In this document: in pieces, positions 25,675 to 43,517 of the stretch | How positions within the stretch are numbered: position 1 is the stretch's first letter | How the letters are laid out: each line of letters begins with the position of its first letter | Assembly: GCA_012517875.1 (NCBI GenBank) | Contig: JAAYUB010000022.1 | Location: forward strand, 1-56,282 | Direction of reading: 5' to 3' | Origin: Acidobacteriota bacterium | Lineage (GTDB): Bacteria > Acidobacteriota > JAAYUB01 | Length of the DNA: 56,282 nucleotides | Made by a program: the position numbers and the translations under genes | The notes under the pieces: generated by a model | What the model saw: the letters and a program-made list of their open reading frames with translations, nothing else | What the model was told of the DNA's origin: nothing | Databases searched by the model: none

Positions 25675-25834
25675 TCTATAGTCACAGGTTTAGATTGTTA
25701 TGTTTGATTGTAAGGCTCATACATATTGTTTTTGCCGCTCTCGCTCCACATCATCCGGCACCGAAGCCAGCACCCCCTCGCGGCAACACCAGAGCATGTG
25801 CGTTGAGTTTTTTGATTATTGTAAAGGAGGTCTT

Positions 25835-27649
25835 ATGAGAAGATTCCTTCTGACGCTCCTCGTGGTCGCCTGTTTATTGCCGGGTTCCTCGGCATTGGCC
25901 AAGGAAGCCAATCCCGGCGGCCTCCAGCTGGCCGCGGCCCATGCGGGCCCGGGTGACATCGTTGTCCGGCTTCGCAATCACCTGATTGCCACGAACGGCA
26001 TCGAGGCGGCGTTCTCCGAACCGAGCTACGTTGGCTCGGAGTACTGCCTGTCATGCCACGGCGCCTTCTCGCCCGAGATGGATGAGTGGCACCACACCCT
26101 GCACGCATTTTTCATTCGCGAGCCGATGGGGATGTACAGCCTGCAACCGGGCCAGGGGATCATGGCCGATTACGACAAGAACGGGCAGGACGACTTCATG
26201 CAGGGCCTGGACTTCAATGCCATCACCGGTACCGCCCTGGACGCCGTTCAACCCAATGCGCCGATCCTGTCCTACGACGCAGCCGCGGACAGGTACTACA
26301 TCCAACTCGGACCCGGCGGGCTGAAACTCTGGGTGGTCGCCACACTGGGCGGCCACAGCGTGGGCAACGGTCAGCGCTTCATGTGCCGCGTGCCGGTTTC
26401 CGACGGCGACAAGCACACCGGCGGCTGGAGCCAAGCCATTTACTTCGGACCTCTGGCATGGAGCGGAACGACTTATAGCGCCAGCACCACGGCCTGGTAC
26501 ACCGGCAACACGCCCAAGTACGCGCCCGGTGTGACCGCAATCGACCTGGGCAATCCGGCCACCGGACTCCAGGGTCAGAACTACCTGAAGAACTGCGTGG
26601 GCTGCCACATGACCGGCGTCCGCCAGGCGTGGGTTGCCGAAAGCGGCGAGTACATCGTCAATCCCTACCCGGCCTCGCTCTACCAGGAGTTTAGCCCGAA
26701 TTATCCCGATCTGGATGGGGACGGCATCAAGGACCTGATCAACATCGGTTGCGAATCGTGCCACGGCCCCGGCTCCATGCACATTCTCAGCCGCGGCAAT
26801 CCAGAGCGGATTGTCAACCCCAGCAATATCCGGAACAACAAGGAGCGGTCGGCCGTGTGTCTCCAGTGCCACGTCCGGATTGCGTCCGCCCCGTCGAAAA
26901 AATGGGGCTTCACGTATGATGAAACCGCCAACACCGGTTACCGGATGCAGATCCCGGTGATCCCGCTGGACACCTACCAGGTGTCCACCGCAGCCAAGTG
27001 GCCGGACGGCTGGAACTATGCCTACGCCCGCATCGATTCGTACTTGAGCAGCGGCCACTACCAGGGCAGCCATGGCATCGCCTGCAGCGACTGCCACAAT
27101 GCCCACCGTGAAACCGCCAACCCGGCCCAGGTGCGCGACACCATGAACCACAGCGGCGTGAACGACATCCCGTCGCTCGTGGAAAACGACAGCTTCTGTC
27201 TGTCGTGCCACAACGCGCCCTACTCCTTCCCCACCATCACCGAGCAGATGGTCAAGGACTGGGACGCCAACTTCACGACGATCCGCGCCGCCATTGAAGA
27301 GCACACACATCACCCCTACGGCGCGGACCGCATCATGGGCCTGTCCAACTGCATCACCTGCCACATGGCGCCCAACCAGGGGCATTCCTTCATGCCGGCC
27401 CGTCCGGAGGACACCATCACCTATCGCACCGCCACCGGCTTCTACTCATCGGCGACGGGCAATGTGAACTCCTGCTCCTCCGCCTGCCACCGCGGGCTGG
27501 TGCGCATCTGGCAGGATGTGGAGGTCATCGCCGACTGGACCAACAACAAGTTCGGCACGCCCACCGAGATCGCGCTGGCCAACCACCTGGTGGAGTACTT
27601 CGGTCCCGGCGGACTCTGGTGGGACACCACCCCGGAAGCCGCCCACTAG
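25835..27649 (+). CDS. Exported octaheme c-type cytochrome
   Basis: A 604-residue protein with a signal peptide (hydrophobic core about residues 4-18). Seven CXXCH heme motifs are present: CLSCH (from residue 71), CVGCH, CESCH, CLQCH, CSDCH, CLSCH and CITCH. An eighth site is CSSACH at 547-552, a CX3CH variant. Several further His residues can serve as distal ligands. Two DxDxxG-type loops (DYDKNGQDD and DLDGDGIKD) look like calcium sites. It is probably a periplasmic or outer-membrane electron carrier or reductase; the substrate is unknown. AAAGGAGG precedes the ATG at 25835. It has its own promoter and terminator, so it is monocistronic. Confidence 0.9.
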   Translation: MRRFLLTLLVVACLLPGSSALAKEANPGGLQLAAAHAGPGDIVVRLRNHLIATNGIEAAFSEPSYVGSEYCLSCHGAFSPEMDEWHHTLHAFFIREPMGMYSLQPGQGIMADYDKNGQDDFMQGLDFNAITGTALDAVQPNAPILSYDAAADRYYIQLGPGGLKLWVVATLGGHSVGNGQRFMCRVPVSDGDKHTGGWSQAIYFGPLAWSGTTYSASTTAWYTGNTPKYAPGVTAIDLGNPATGLQGQNYLKNCVGCHMTGVRQAWVAESGEYIVNPYPASLYQEFSPNYPDLDGDGIKDLINIGCESCHGPGSMHILSRGNPERIVNPSNIRNNKERSAVCLQCHVRIASAPSKKWGFTYDETANTGYRMQIPVIPLDTYQVSTAAKWPDGWNYAYARIDSYLSSGHYQGSHGIACSDCHNAHRETANPAQVRDTMNHSGVNDIPSLVENDSFCLSCHNAPYSFPTITEQMVKDWDANFTTIRAAIEEHTHHPYGADRIMGLSNCITCHMAPNQGHSFMPARPEDTITYRTATGFYSSATGNVNSCSSACHRGLVRIWQDVEVIADWTNNKFGTPTEIALANHLVEYFGPGGLWWDTTPEAAH

Positions 27650-38031: not shown

Positions 38032-38796
38032 TCAGCCTTTGACCTCGATTTTGTCGAAGGTGAGCAGCACACGGGAATCGACCAGCTTGCCTTTGGTGAT
38101 CGCCGGAAACACGATGGATGAATCGATCATGTTCCGGACCTTGACGGCCGTCCCCGGATCGCCCCCGGAGATGGAGAGGATCTCCGCGCTGCCGTCGGAC
38201 CGAACATGGGTGAGCACGCCCAGGCGGTCGCCCTTCAGTTTCTGAAAATCGTTTTCCGCGAACATCTTGACCGTGACCGTGCTGATCCGGGGCTGATAGA
38301 CCTGGTCGGACGAAATCCGCTCGGGGGAAAAATCATATAGGTTTTGGAGATACTGGCGCTCCACGAGGTTCTCCGCCATGCCGTTGCCCGTGGAATCGTC
38401 CAGAAAGGCCTGCAGGTTCTCAAATCCCACCGGCGAATAGACCAGCAGCGAAATGGCCAGGAAGAACAGCACCGTGATGGGCACCGCGAGGAAAACCGTC
38501 CGCAAATGCTCGGCCATCGAGAACTCGAGCAAGCGGAATTGCAGGGTGGCAAACCAGTTGGATTGCAGGGGATGGGGTGCGAAATTGAGTTGGGAGTTCA
38601 GCGCGTAAGTGAGTCGGGCGGGAGCTGAAACAACCTGCAGACTCCGAACCATGTCACGGGCTTCGGTCATCCGGGCAAGGTACATGCGGCACGCGGCGCA
38701 GCGCGTCAGGTGACCGTTCAGATCCATTTCATCGGCGCTGGAAAGCTCACCGTCGATATATTCATGAACCAAAATCTTGTAGTTATCGCAATCCAT
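38032..38796 (-). CDS. Zinc anti-sigma factor with TonB-like C-terminus
   Basis: A 254-residue protein. The N-terminus has the zinc anti-sigma motif H29-x3-C33-x2-C36 in GHLTRCAAC. A single membrane helix lies at about 106-122 (LRTVFLAVPITVLFFLAISLLV). The periplasmic C-terminal region (about 165-254) has the beta-hairpin pattern VTHVRSDGSAEILSISGG and VRNMIDSSIVFPA, similar to TonB C-terminal domains. It overlaps the ECF sigma gene by 14 bases and probably holds that sigma factor at the membrane. Confidence 0.85.
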   Translation of the reverse strand: MDCDNYKILVHEYIDGELSSADEMDLNGHLTRCAACRMYLARMTEARDMVRSLQVVSAPARLTYALNSQLNFAPHPLQSNWFATLQFRLLEFSMAEHLRTVFLAVPITVLFFLAISLLVYSPVGFENLQAFLDDSTGNGMAENLVERQYLQNLYDFSPERISSDQVYQPRISTVTVKMFAENDFQKLKGDRLGVLTHVRSDGSAEILSISGGDPGTAVKVRNMIDSSIVFPAITKGKLVDSRVLLTFDKIEVKG

Positions 38797-39436
38797 ATGG
38801 ATACCCTGACAGACAGCTGTCCATCAAACTCCGCAGTTGCTCGCGCGCCCGGGCGATCCGGCTCTTGACCGTGCCCAAGGACAGCCCGAGACAGTTCCCG
38901 ATCTCCTCATAGGACATCGCCTCGATGTCCCGCAGCAACAGCACCATCCGGTATTTGAACGGCAGCCGGTCCAGACAGCGCTGCAGATTCTCCTGCGTTT
39001 CCCGCATGGCGCATGCCTGCTCCGGACTCGGCGCACCGCCGCTCAGGGACAGGTTGAGCCGGATCATCGCCGCATGGTTCAGATCGTGGAGCGAAACCGT
39101 TCTGCCGCGGCGCCGCACGCGCCACCAGCGTTGCCGGTTGGCCGCCTTGTTGGCCACGATCCGGTACAACCAGGTCTTCAATGATGACTCGCCGCGGAAC
39201 GTGTCCAGTTTCCGGTAGACGGTCATGAAAACATCCTGGGTCAAATCGAGGGCGTCGTCGAAATGACCCAGCAGGCGATAGGCCAAGTGGAAGATCATGT
39301 CGCGGTATTCGGCATAGACATCCTCGAAACGGCAGCACACGCGTGCTGCATCGCCCGCTACGAGTTCGGAGTCCGAATACGGCAGGACCAGCTTTGCTTC
39401 CGGGATGTCTTTCAACGTCAGATCCTGAGTAGCCAT
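38783..39436 (-). CDS. ECF (RpoE-like) RNA polymerase sigma factor
   Basis: A 217-residue sigma-70 family protein. Region 2 contains YRDMIFHLAYRLLGHFDDALDLTQDVF and the -10 binding TFRGESSLKTWLYRIVANKA. Region 4 contains LPFKYRMVLLLRDIEAMSYEEIGNCLG with the helix-turn-helix LSLGTVKSRIARAREQL. The first 30 residues are an extra N-terminal arm. Its gene overlaps that of the cognate zinc anti-sigma factor and is divergent from the decaheme cytochrome-porin genes. GGAG precedes the ATG. Confidence 0.93.
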   Translation of the reverse strand: MATQDLTLKDIPEAKLVLPYSDSELVAGDAARVCCRFEDVYAEYRDMIFHLAYRLLGHFDDALDLTQDVFMTVYRKLDTFRGESSLKTWLYRIVANKAANRQRWWRVRRRGRTVSLHDLNHAAMIRLNLSLSGGAPSPEQACAMRETQENLQRCLDRLPFKYRMVLLLRDIEAMSYEEIGNCLGLSLGTVKSRIARAREQLRSLMDSCLSGYPYGLR

Positions 39437-39563: not shown

Positions 39564-39733
39564 CAACTTCAGATTATATATTAAGTGGTTGATAAATGAG
39601 CTTTTCCCTCAATTATTACCGTTGATCCATCGCCGTACTTTCCCGTGTGGAGAGTGCGAGTTCAATCCCCACACCGGCTGATCAATCCGATGATTTGAGT
39701 GTCTGTTTTTCTACCTCACATACAGGAGGCCTC

Positions 39734-40690
39734 ATGAAACGGTGTCTCGCGTTTCTCCTGCCGGCCTCCATCGTCCTGCTGATGGGCTTCGGCCTGGCGG
39801 CTGATGCCGCCAAGTCGTCTCCCACCGAGGAACTCCTCCCCGAAACGAGCCGCCAGTGCGCGAGTTGCCACGACGAGCTGTACAACCGCTTCGTGGCCGC
39901 CAACGCGCACGCCCGGCTGAAATCGTTCGAGTGGGGAACAGGCCTCGGTGGATGCGAAGCCTGCCATGGGAATGCTCAGAAGCACCTCGATTCGGGAGAG
40001 AAGACCGACATCTTCTCCTTCGGGGACGCGGACGAGGCGAAAACGAACGGGATGTGCATGACCTGTCACAAAACCGGCGAGTTTTCGCAATGGGCCCACG
40101 GCGCGCATGCCCGTAATGGACTGGCGTGCACCGAGTGTCACACCATCCACAAGGGCAAAGGACGCACGGCCGGCGACCAGATGGTGTTGTGCGGCAAGTG
40201 CCACGCCGACATCAACGCCAAAATGAACTACCCCTCGCACCACCCGGTGCGCGAGGGCAAGATGGGCTGCACCAGCTGCCACACGCCGCATGCCGGCGCC
40301 GTGATCGGTTCACTGAAGACCACCGAGCAGAAAAACGACCTGTGCCTCAAGTGCCACAGCCGCTACCAGGGTCCGTTCGTCTTCGAGCACGCGCCGGTCG
40401 TGGAAGACTGCACCATCTGCCATGCCCCGCACGGTGCGGCCGCCAACAACCTGTTGACGCAGAACGAACCGTTCCTCTGCCTGCAGTGCCACTCCGCCCA
40501 TTTCCACATGGCCCGGATCGGCGATTCGACCCCGCACAGCGGGCCGTCGGGTGACGCCTCCAACCGCTGGGGCGAGTCGGGCTGGATCCGCGCCTACGGC
40601 ACCAAGTGCACCCAGTGCCATTCCCAGGTCCACGGCTCTGATTTGCCGTCCCAGGGCGTCAGCAGCCATGGCCGCAGCCTGAGCCGGTAA
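39734..40690 (+). CDS. Decaheme c-type cytochrome (MtrA/DmsE type)
   Basis: A 318-residue exported protein with a signal peptide (hydrophobic core about 5-22) and ten CXXCH motifs: CASCH (from residue 42), CEACH, CMTCH, CTECH, CGKCH, CTSCH, CLKCH, CTICH, CLQCH and CTQCH. Number and spacing match the MtrA/DmsE decaheme family, which forms a heme wire inside an outer-membrane barrel. The following gene encodes such a barrel. AGGAGG precedes the ATG at 39734. It is divergent from the ECF sigma/anti-sigma pair. Confidence 0.94.
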   Translation: MKRCLAFLLPASIVLLMGFGLAADAAKSSPTEELLPETSRQCASCHDELYNRFVAANAHARLKSFEWGTGLGGCEACHGNAQKHLDSGEKTDIFSFGDADEAKTNGMCMTCHKTGEFSQWAHGAHARNGLACTECHTIHKGKGRTAGDQMVLCGKCHADINAKMNYPSHHPVREGKMGCTSCHTPHAGAVIGSLKTTEQKNDLCLKCHSRYQGPFVFEHAPVVEDCTICHAPHGAAANNLLTQNEPFLCLQCHSAHFHMARIGDSTPHSGPSGDASNRWGESGWIRAYGTKCTQCHSQVHGSDLPSQGVSSHGRSLSR

Positions 40691-40702: not shown

Positions 40703-42433
40703 ATGAAAAAGCATTTCACGCTGATCGCGCTCATCGTGGCGGTGCTGGCCGTCCCGGTTCTCGCCCAGGGCGGCGCCACGCGAACGGAGGGCAAGTTCGT
40801 CATCGGCATTGCCGGGGATGATCTGGACCGGTACATCGGCCGGGCCGCAGAGTACGAAATCGCCGACCAGGGCGTCCGCCCCTGGGTCAAAGCCTACCTG
40901 GAGCTGCTGAATCGCAACCTGTATCTCGAAATGGCCGCGGCGCACAGCGGCAATCCCGACGACCAGCTGTACCGGGTTCACGTGAACGCTGCCCGGGTCT
41001 GGGACAGCCGGTTCATCTACCGCCGGTTTCTGCACCGCCTGGACCACGATCCGCTCGCCAACATCGACACCACCCAGGTGGCCGGCCACCTCTACACGTA
41101 TGCCGATGACCTGGCGCCCGCCCACGATTACCGGATCACGCACAGCGAAATTGCGTTCCTGAACGAATTCAGGATTCCGCAGGCGGAATGGCTCTCGCTC
41201 CGGTTCGATTACACTCGTCAGCAACGCGAGGGCGCCCACCAGTCCACCCAGCTGAACCACTGTTCCTCCTGCCACGTCACGGGCCAGGTGCGGCCGGTGG
41301 ATGAAGCCCAGGACGACATTCAGTTCGGCATCGCCGTGGACACCGCCAAAGCCGGCGGATCCTACACGTTCCAGTACCGCCGGTTCAGCGATTCGGTTGG
41401 GTCCCTGCCCTACCTGTTCGACGAAGCGGTTCATCCCGGCACCCGGCTGGATGTCTTCACCAACCGGATCCTCTACGACCGCACGAACGGAGAGATCCCC
41501 GTCAGCCAGGTGCCCGACACCAATAAACTGCTCCATGCTCTCAAGGCGTATTACAACATCGATGATCGCAACACGGTCACCGGCGCTTTCCTCTATTCCG
41601 AAGTCGAGAACAAGACCAGCGATCTCAAAATCTACTCCCGCAATTACACCGGTCGCTATACCGGATCGCTCGGGCGCGGCGTCACCGTCAACGCCCGATT
41701 CCGGTACTCGAACATCGACAATGCCACGACCTTTGTGGAGCTTCCGGACCAGGTGGCCAATGCGGGACCGCAAGCAGGCCGAACGTACGCCGAGGCCTAT
41801 CCGACCTTCGGTGGGGCATCATTCACCCGCTACTCGGCCCAGTCACGGGAAAACACCGAATTCGATGCCGACCTGAGCGTGCCCCTGCCCGGCCGAAACC
41901 GTTTTGTGGCGGAATACGATTTCGAGGACTCCGCCCGGGACTACTTTGAGACCGGCTCCACCCGTGAGCATCAGCTGACCTTCACCTTCCGGACAGACCA
42001 CCGCCGGGAGCTGTCGGGCTGGGCCCGCTACCAGGCGTCCTTCATCGACAATCCCTTCGCCAACCGGAATGCTGCGGTGGAGGAGGTGCTCCAGCCGTTT
42101 TCGACTCCGGGCGCCGTACCGTTCCCGGGCGTCCAGTACTTCCAGTTGTACGCATCGCGGCAAGCCACGCTCACCAACCAGCCCGCCATGACCCACGACC
42201 TGAAACTCAACGGAACCTGGAAACCGATCCGGAACGGCGCGCTGAACGTGGCGTACAACCTCAAGCACGCGACCAACGACGAGCTGAATTTCTCGGACTG
42301 GTCTCAGACGGTCCACACCGTTGGTGCGGATGCCTGGTACTCCCCGGACGAGACAATCACCCTCAACGCCGGGATCCATTACACCGATTACGAGACGGAG
42401 TCGCTGTTCGTGCAACCCGTCTGGAATGGTTGA
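40703..42433 (+). CDS. MtrB/PioB-like outer-membrane barrel, part before in-frame UGA
   Basis: A 576-residue reading frame with a signal peptide (residues 1-21, AQGG) and many alternating beta-strands, such as HALKAYYNIDDRNTVTGAF and GVTVNARFRYSN, as in MtrB/PioB barrels that sheath a decaheme cytochrome. C187-S-S-C190-H191 is a heme-attachment motif inside the barrel protein. The frame stops at UGA (codon 577, 42431-42433), but the same frame continues to a normal barrel end (42434-42856). The full product would be about 717 residues, normal for the family. It starts 12 bases after the decaheme gene with AAAGGAGG upstream, so the two form an operon. Confidence 0.85.
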   Translation: MKKHFTLIALIVAVLAVPVLAQGGATRTEGKFVIGIAGDDLDRYIGRAAEYEIADQGVRPWVKAYLELLNRNLYLEMAAAHSGNPDDQLYRVHVNAARVWDSRFIYRRFLHRLDHDPLANIDTTQVAGHLYTYADDLAPAHDYRITHSEIAFLNEFRIPQAEWLSLRFDYTRQQREGAHQSTQLNHCSSCHVTGQVRPVDEAQDDIQFGIAVDTAKAGGSYTFQYRRFSDSVGSLPYLFDEAVHPGTRLDVFTNRILYDRTNGEIPVSQVPDTNKLLHALKAYYNIDDRNTVTGAFLYSEVENKTSDLKIYSRNYTGRYTGSLGRGVTVNARFRYSNIDNATTFVELPDQVANAGPQAGRTYAEAYPTFGGASFTRYSAQSRENTEFDADLSVPLPGRNRFVAEYDFEDSARDYFETGSTREHQLTFTFRTDHRRELSGWARYQASFIDNPFANRNAAVEEVLQPFSTPGAVPFPGVQYFQLYASRQATLTNQPAMTHDLKLNGTWKPIRNGALNVAYNLKHATNDELNFSDWSQTVHTVGADAWYSPDETITLNAGIHYTDYETESLFVQPVWNG

Positions 42434-42856
42434 GCGGCCGGCATCACGACGGGCCAGTTTGGCTCGTTATACGACCCGATGGATTACCACGGTCACGACA
42501 CCAACGCGTTTTTCACCGCCAATTTCATCCCCCGCGAACGCCTGCGCATCTACGCGGAGTTCGCCTTCAACCAGGTGGACGAAGGCCTCGACGGGATCTC
42601 GATCAACCTCGCCCAGGTGCCCGGCGTGCCACCGGGCAACCTGTTTGACTACAGCATCGACGAAACACTGGGCGATTACTCCCACGTCAACGTCCGCCAC
42701 ATCATGGGCAAGTACGGGTTTTCCTACGAGTTCGCCAACGGCATCTCGCTGCTGTCCTATCTCAAGCACGACAATTACAACGACAACACCCCATACCTGT
42801 TCGACGCGACTGGGACCGTGATCAGCCTGGTCGCCGGGCTCGGTTACCGATTCTGA
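42434..42856 (+). pseudogene. C-terminal part of the MtrB/PioB-like barrel after in-frame UGA
   Basis: 140 codons in the same frame as 40703-42433, starting AAGITTGQFGSLYDPMDYHG. The composition and strand pattern (RERLRIYAEFAFNQ, ISLLSYLKHDNY) continue the barrel, and it ends GLGYRF, with the C-terminal aromatic residue typical of outer-membrane proteins. An internal ATG at 42479 has no good ribosome binding site. The segment is either the tail of a gene broken by a nonsense change, read through, or whole in reality with a sequencing error. Confidence 0.8.
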
Positions 42857-43077: not shown

Positions 43078-43455
43078 TTCCGGAGCGGCGGCGGCAAACG
43101 CTCCCGCGCCCGACGCGGGAGAGGAAAGTCCGGACTCCACAGGGCGGTGCGCCTCCTAACGGGAGGGAGGGGCGACCCTACGGAAAGTGCAACAGAGAGC
43201 AGACCGCCGATGGCCCGCGTGGCTCAGGCAAGGGTGAAACGGTGGGGTAAGAGCCCACCAGGTCCGGTGGCGACACCGGACGCTTGGCAAACCCCGCACG
43301 GAGCAAGGCCGAATAGGAAGGCGCTTGATGCCGGCCCGGCCGATGCCTTCGGGTAGGCCGCACGAGCGCCGGGGGAACCCGGCGCCCAGAGGAATGTTTG
43401 CCCCGCGTCTCCGCGGAGAGGCGGAACAGAATCCGGCTTACAAGCCGCTCCGGAA
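43078..43455 (+). ncRNA. rnpB: RNase P RNA, bacterial type A
   Basis: The catalytic RNA that trims tRNA 5' ends. The P4 core GAGGAAAGTCCGGACTCCACAG is seen as two overlapping parts at 43121-43142 and its partner ACAGAATCCGGCTTA at 43428-43442. P1 is TTCCGGAGCGGC (43078-43089) pairing with GCCGCTCCGGAA (43444-43455), followed by TTTTT. Other conserved pieces include CAACAGAGAGCAGACCGCCGATG (split in two) and AAGGGTGAAACGGTGGGGTAAGAG. Boundaries are from P1. Confidence 0.95.
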
Positions 43456-43517
43456 TTTTTCTGAAGTTGAATCTTCGATCCGTCTAATGTTCAAACCAAA
43501 TACAAGGAGATAGCATC

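Follow-up and report, generated by a model that had tools for sequence, protein, structure and literature searches.

In a contig of an Acidobacteriota bacterium (JAAYUB010000022.1; the whole stretch of 56,282 nucleotides that was analysed is called the window here), a reading frame on the + strand starts with ATG at position 40703 and meets an in-frame TGA at 42431-42433, its codon 577, after which another 140 codons (578-717) stay open up to the terminal TGA stop at 42854-42856, directly behind a GLGYRF end. This raises the question whether the internal UGA breaks the gene, ends it or is decoded as an amino acid. The original prediction, made from the sequence alone, had located the codon, the 140 codons behind it and the GLGYRF end exactly, and had left the choice between a nonsense change, a sequencing error, a recent pseudogene and read-through of UGA. 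Of these options, read-through is the one that holds, the UGA being almost certainly decoded as selenocysteine (Sec). As we read it, the gene (40703..42856, +) would encode a selenoprotein of 717 residues with Sec at position 577, which belongs to the GSU2204 family and is an MtrB/PioB-like outer-membrane barrel. A probable signal peptide covers about residues 1-22 (40703..40768, +), where the hydrophobic N-terminus MKKHFTLIALIVAVLAVPVLAQ is modelled as a helix at residues 2-20.

The codon was followed through relatives in two surveys. Used as query against 60 related genomes, the read-through protein had a match in eight of them, and all seven full-length matches, the window gene included, contain a single internal TGA as their sole internal stop; down to about 24% identity, these TGAs share one alignment column. 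The context of the UGA column is G-U-(A/G)-(A/G). In a survey of the phylum, 396 genomes were compared with the family model NF041027, and 32 matches exceeded its cut-off; 31 of them reach the UGA column, where 29 carry TGA, two (in genomes G368 and G128) carry the cysteine codon TGC and nothing else is found. The 29 UGA members come from many genera and independent assemblies. Inspection of homologues at codon 577, a check that the original prediction had named, was thus decisive, and the question of chance is settled because the column is conserved. Moreover, selection is equally strong on both sides of the UGA, with a dN/dS of 0.118 before and 0.122 after it when the window gene is compared with that of its congener G002. 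A nonsense mutation, a sequencing error or a recent pseudogene, as a broken frame in a draft assembly of 182 contigs might suggest, is therefore ruled out with virtually no room left, since the column is conserved across genera and omega is 0.12 on each side. Comparison can in this way resolve an apparent stop codon in a single raw sequence. Genome-wide recoding of UGA, already dismissed in the original prediction, is likewise unsupported, as TGA also serves as the terminal stop of this very gene and the genome has a dedicated tRNA-Sec system.

Two of the relatives deserve separate mention. One is decayed (L061; G355:C51:15500-19500): it has an internal TAA and CSTCQ in place of the CXXCH motif discussed below, and retains the UGA at the Sec column of its remaining part. 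The other (L017, JAKQQT010000375.1) stems from a record labelled Armatimonadota and is nearly identical to the copy of an acidobacterial congener (L018); the label may reflect a bin misclassification.

The genes for decoding UGA as Sec were found in the bacterium's own genome, all four of selC, selA, selB and selD being present: a tRNA-Sec with anticodon TCA (UCA; 79 bits), SelA (474 bits), SelB (320 bits, its gene lying at a contig edge and cut by the contig end) and SelD (372 bits). The presence of the first three, which had been named beforehand as the genes to look for, was the second decisive result. The selD gene (L054; G000:C121:30705-31628) has an in-frame TGA of its own, and SelD itself is therefore probably a selenoprotein too. 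SelB exceeded the cut-off in all ten other UGA genomes tested, and tRNA-Sec did so in 23 of the 29 UGA genomes. In the remaining six, which are drafts and all contain SelB, no tRNA-Sec was matched under Infernal's stricter filters; a looser rerun gave borderline scores in two and still no match in four. In the two Cys genomes, searches for SelB and for tRNA-Sec found neither in either genome. From these gene searches, loss of the Sec machinery appears to accompany the replacement of UGA by a cysteine codon.

Downstream of the UGA, a putative bacterial SECIS hairpin of 9 bp with G.U pairs was identified at 42448..42468 (+) by folding and covariation. Its loop, GUU at 42457-42459, lies at a UGA-to-loop spacing of 23 nt, the 39-nt stretch folds at -13.3 kcal/mol, and the hairpin satisfies all bSECIS constraints given in PMC13188914. 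The original prediction had pointed instead to a weak GGCC/GGCC stem at about 42435-42454 and had judged it unlike a standard selenocysteine element, a remark that was mistaken; this stem is an irrelevant structure, and the conserved, covarying hairpin takes its place. In a set of 22 distinct UGA sequences, 92.9% of the cells are paired; shuffles reach 79.1% and slid registers 26-49%. Covariation amounts to 0.308 compared to 0.085 in shuffles (0 of 500), with 19 double changes. Compared with synonymous recodings, the hairpin is stabler in UGA forms (n=27, mean z -1.56) and not in the two Cys forms (z +0.58 and -0.22). Taken by itself, the window hairpin is modestly stabler than shuffles, with z -0.99 and -1.81 in two foldings, so that the case for this candidate element is carried by the family, the window sequence alone offering a modest one. 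Five members, or six when G365 is counted, have a different and unrelated hairpin sequence (e.g. CUCCGAC-GGU-GUCGGAG) at nearly identical spacing, the loop again starting with G.

A different way of translating the whole frame would be a regulated stop, partially read through by one of the usual tRNAs (that for Trp or for Cys) and yielding short and long barrels. UGA is generally a leaky stop, which makes such a scheme conceivable, but it sits badly with the conservation and covariation of a SECIS-type hairpin and with the exchange of UGA for Cys where the Sec machinery is lost; in the model, moreover, the truncated form would be without barrel strands 22-26. We regard it as highly improbable. 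From the combined comparisons we infer, with near certainty, that this is an intact gene for a bacterial selenoprotein, its UGA being read as Sec. In this process, SelB together with Sec-tRNA(Sec, UCA) would bind the hairpin 23 nt past the UGA, and selenocysteine would be inserted at position 577 during translation.

NF041027 (NCBIfam; 'GSU2204 family CXXCH-containing (seleno)protein', after Geobacter sulfurreducens GSU2204) matches the barrel with 528 bits at a cut-off of 350, residues 10-576 aligning to model positions 3-580, and the model stops immediately before the Sec codon. Both traits of the family, the CXXCH motif and a Sec or Cys after the modelled part, are present in the barrel as CSSCH 187-191 and UGA 577. 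The match is a full-model one, and the window copy, which comes from an acidobacterial metagenome-assembled genome, shows no difference in kind from the family. The GSU2204 family is treated as a selenoprotein family in a 2026 review (PMC13188914), and the same GSU2204-type barrels are listed among selenoproteins, as MtrB/PioB family, in a 2022 review (PMC9312934). The selenoprotein status of the family is thus already known, and the window gene adds an intact member; in the literature, which catalogues the family as selenoproteins, we found no paper on the role of its selenium. ExtKL, a multiheme selenocytochrome of Geobacter, is likewise a selenoprotein, encoded as part of a cluster for electron transfer (PMC5877670, PMC13188914), but it is a cytochrome of family NF040886, whereas the window protein is a barrel of a different family. 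The original description as an MtrB/PioB-like barrel is borne out by a match to Pfam PF11854 (MtrB_PioB) and by the fold comparison given below. With 23 bits compared to a cut-off of 240, the barrel falls outside the strict MtrB/PioB subfamily TIGR03509, yet it is MtrB-like by fold and by PF11854.

Directly upstream of the barrel gene, at 39647..40690 (+), lies the gene of a decaheme c-type cytochrome with ten CXXCH motifs. It exceeds the cut-offs of both NF041028, the 'GSU2203 family decaheme c-type cytochrome' (365.9 bits, cut-off 325), and TIGR03508 (224 bits, cut-off 192), and is DmsE/MtrA-like; its likeness to the GSU2203 family (OmcK, a relative of DmsE/MtrA) is one at sequence level. 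The cytochrome and barrel genes probably form one operon. An ORF with multiple CXXCH motifs is found just upstream of the barrel in all relatives for which upstream sequence is available, and in G. sulfurreducens the transcripts of GSU2203 (OmcK) and of GSU2204 increase jointly with hematite or magnetite (PMC4070692).

An AlphaFold2 model of the barrel, built on 29 relatives, has a pLDDT of 85.9 and 26 barrel strands as counted from the strand listing. Among solved structures, MtrB (6r2q chain B; E 8.4e-24, TM 0.65/0.71) matches it best. Searching PDB sequences with the family profile gave no match, MtrB being reached by fold comparison only. With MtrB of Shewanella MtrCAB, the barrel has in common 26 antiparallel strands, a helix between strands 1 and 2 and a decaheme cytochrome as partner; it differs in sequence, at about 12% identity, and in having a CXXCH and a Sec of its own. 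The CXXCH, a c-type heme-binding motif (CSSCH, residues 187-191; 41261..41275, +), caps, in the model, the hairpin formed by strands 7 and 8 (residues 161-186 and 190-213), and Sec577 (42431..42433, +) caps the one formed by strands 21 and 22 (residues 552-577 and 580-611). C187, C190 and H191 are invariant in 29 sequences and so, in the alignment of 29 sequences in which Sec is read as Cys, is the Sec column. In the model, both sites occupy the tips of similarly long hairpins on one face. In MtrB (PMC7198977), the tight turns face the periplasm and the long loops the outside, where the loop joining strands 1 and 2 carries a small helix. The model repeats this arrangement: its turns are tight on one side and its loops long on the opposite one, and a short helix links strands 1 and 2. 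This would place the CXXCH and Sec577 hairpins on the outer face. Heme would be attached to the CXXCH of the barrel, as the motif suggests.

Gene pairing and fold together suggest that barrel and decaheme cytochrome form a complex carrying electrons: the product would be a 26-strand MtrB-type outer-membrane barrel sheathing the cytochrome encoded upstream, the two acting as a wire across the outer membrane. Beside the window pair, no MtrC-like outer cytochrome is encoded, and no downstream ORF with at least two CXXCH motifs was found in the available flanks, which in most relatives span about 1 kb. On this basis, namely an MtrB-like model, invariant CXXCH and Sec at tips of the extracellular type and no multi-CXXCH ORF downstream, we propose a barrel that sheathes the decaheme cytochrome and has a heme and a selenium site of its own at the outer mouth. 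Sec577 and the CXXCH heme motif, on two long outer-face loops, would then probably make up a terminal redox site or act as its gate. A more specific version, which we put forward only tentatively and rate as rather unlikely, is that the barrel's own surface heme and Sec577 act jointly as this site at the outer mouth of the wire, possibly with selenium as heme ligand or gate, and so replace the separate MtrC of Shewanella.

The strongest alternative accepts the selenoprotein but gives Sec577 a structural or a selenium- or sulfur-sensing role, with no terminal redox site near a heme. In its favour are three distant paralogues below the NF041027 cut-off, L056 (G123), L057 (G061) and L058 (G153), which keep the CXXCH and have neither Sec nor Cys, the Sec column being Lys or Ile. 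These weaken the notion that Sec and CXXCH are always paired, and because of them Sec seems dispensable in some CXXCH-bearing proteins; across the relatives compared, the heme motif is more widely retained than Sec. The geometry also leaves room for this alternative, as strands 7-8 and 21-22 are almost opposite in a barrel of 26 strands and the two hairpin tips may therefore be far apart. Within the subfamily, however, Sec and CXXCH are both invariant, Sec is otherwise replaced by Cys only, and the model has both residues at similarly long hairpin tips on one face. A structural or sensing role is a serious candidate, which we place somewhat under an even chance. The redox site proposed above has the merit of being testable: a Sec and a heme motif on what would be the outer face of an MtrB-type barrel suggest that selenium chemistry may take place where a transmembrane wire releases its electrons.

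Some further features of these loci were noted. The paralogues L056, L057 and L058 adjoin other multiheme ORFs. In the window, a second multiheme ORF with seven CXXCH motifs lies at 25694-27646 (+) and is weakly GSU2203/DmsE-like (55 bits compared to the cut-off of 325). At 38032-39436 (-), divergent from the cytochrome-barrel pair, lie the genes of an ECF-type sigma factor and of an anti-sigma-like protein with a zinc finger, which might regulate the pair. Directly downstream of the selenoprotein gene, at 43081-43456 (+), lies a class A RNase P RNA (284.6 bits).
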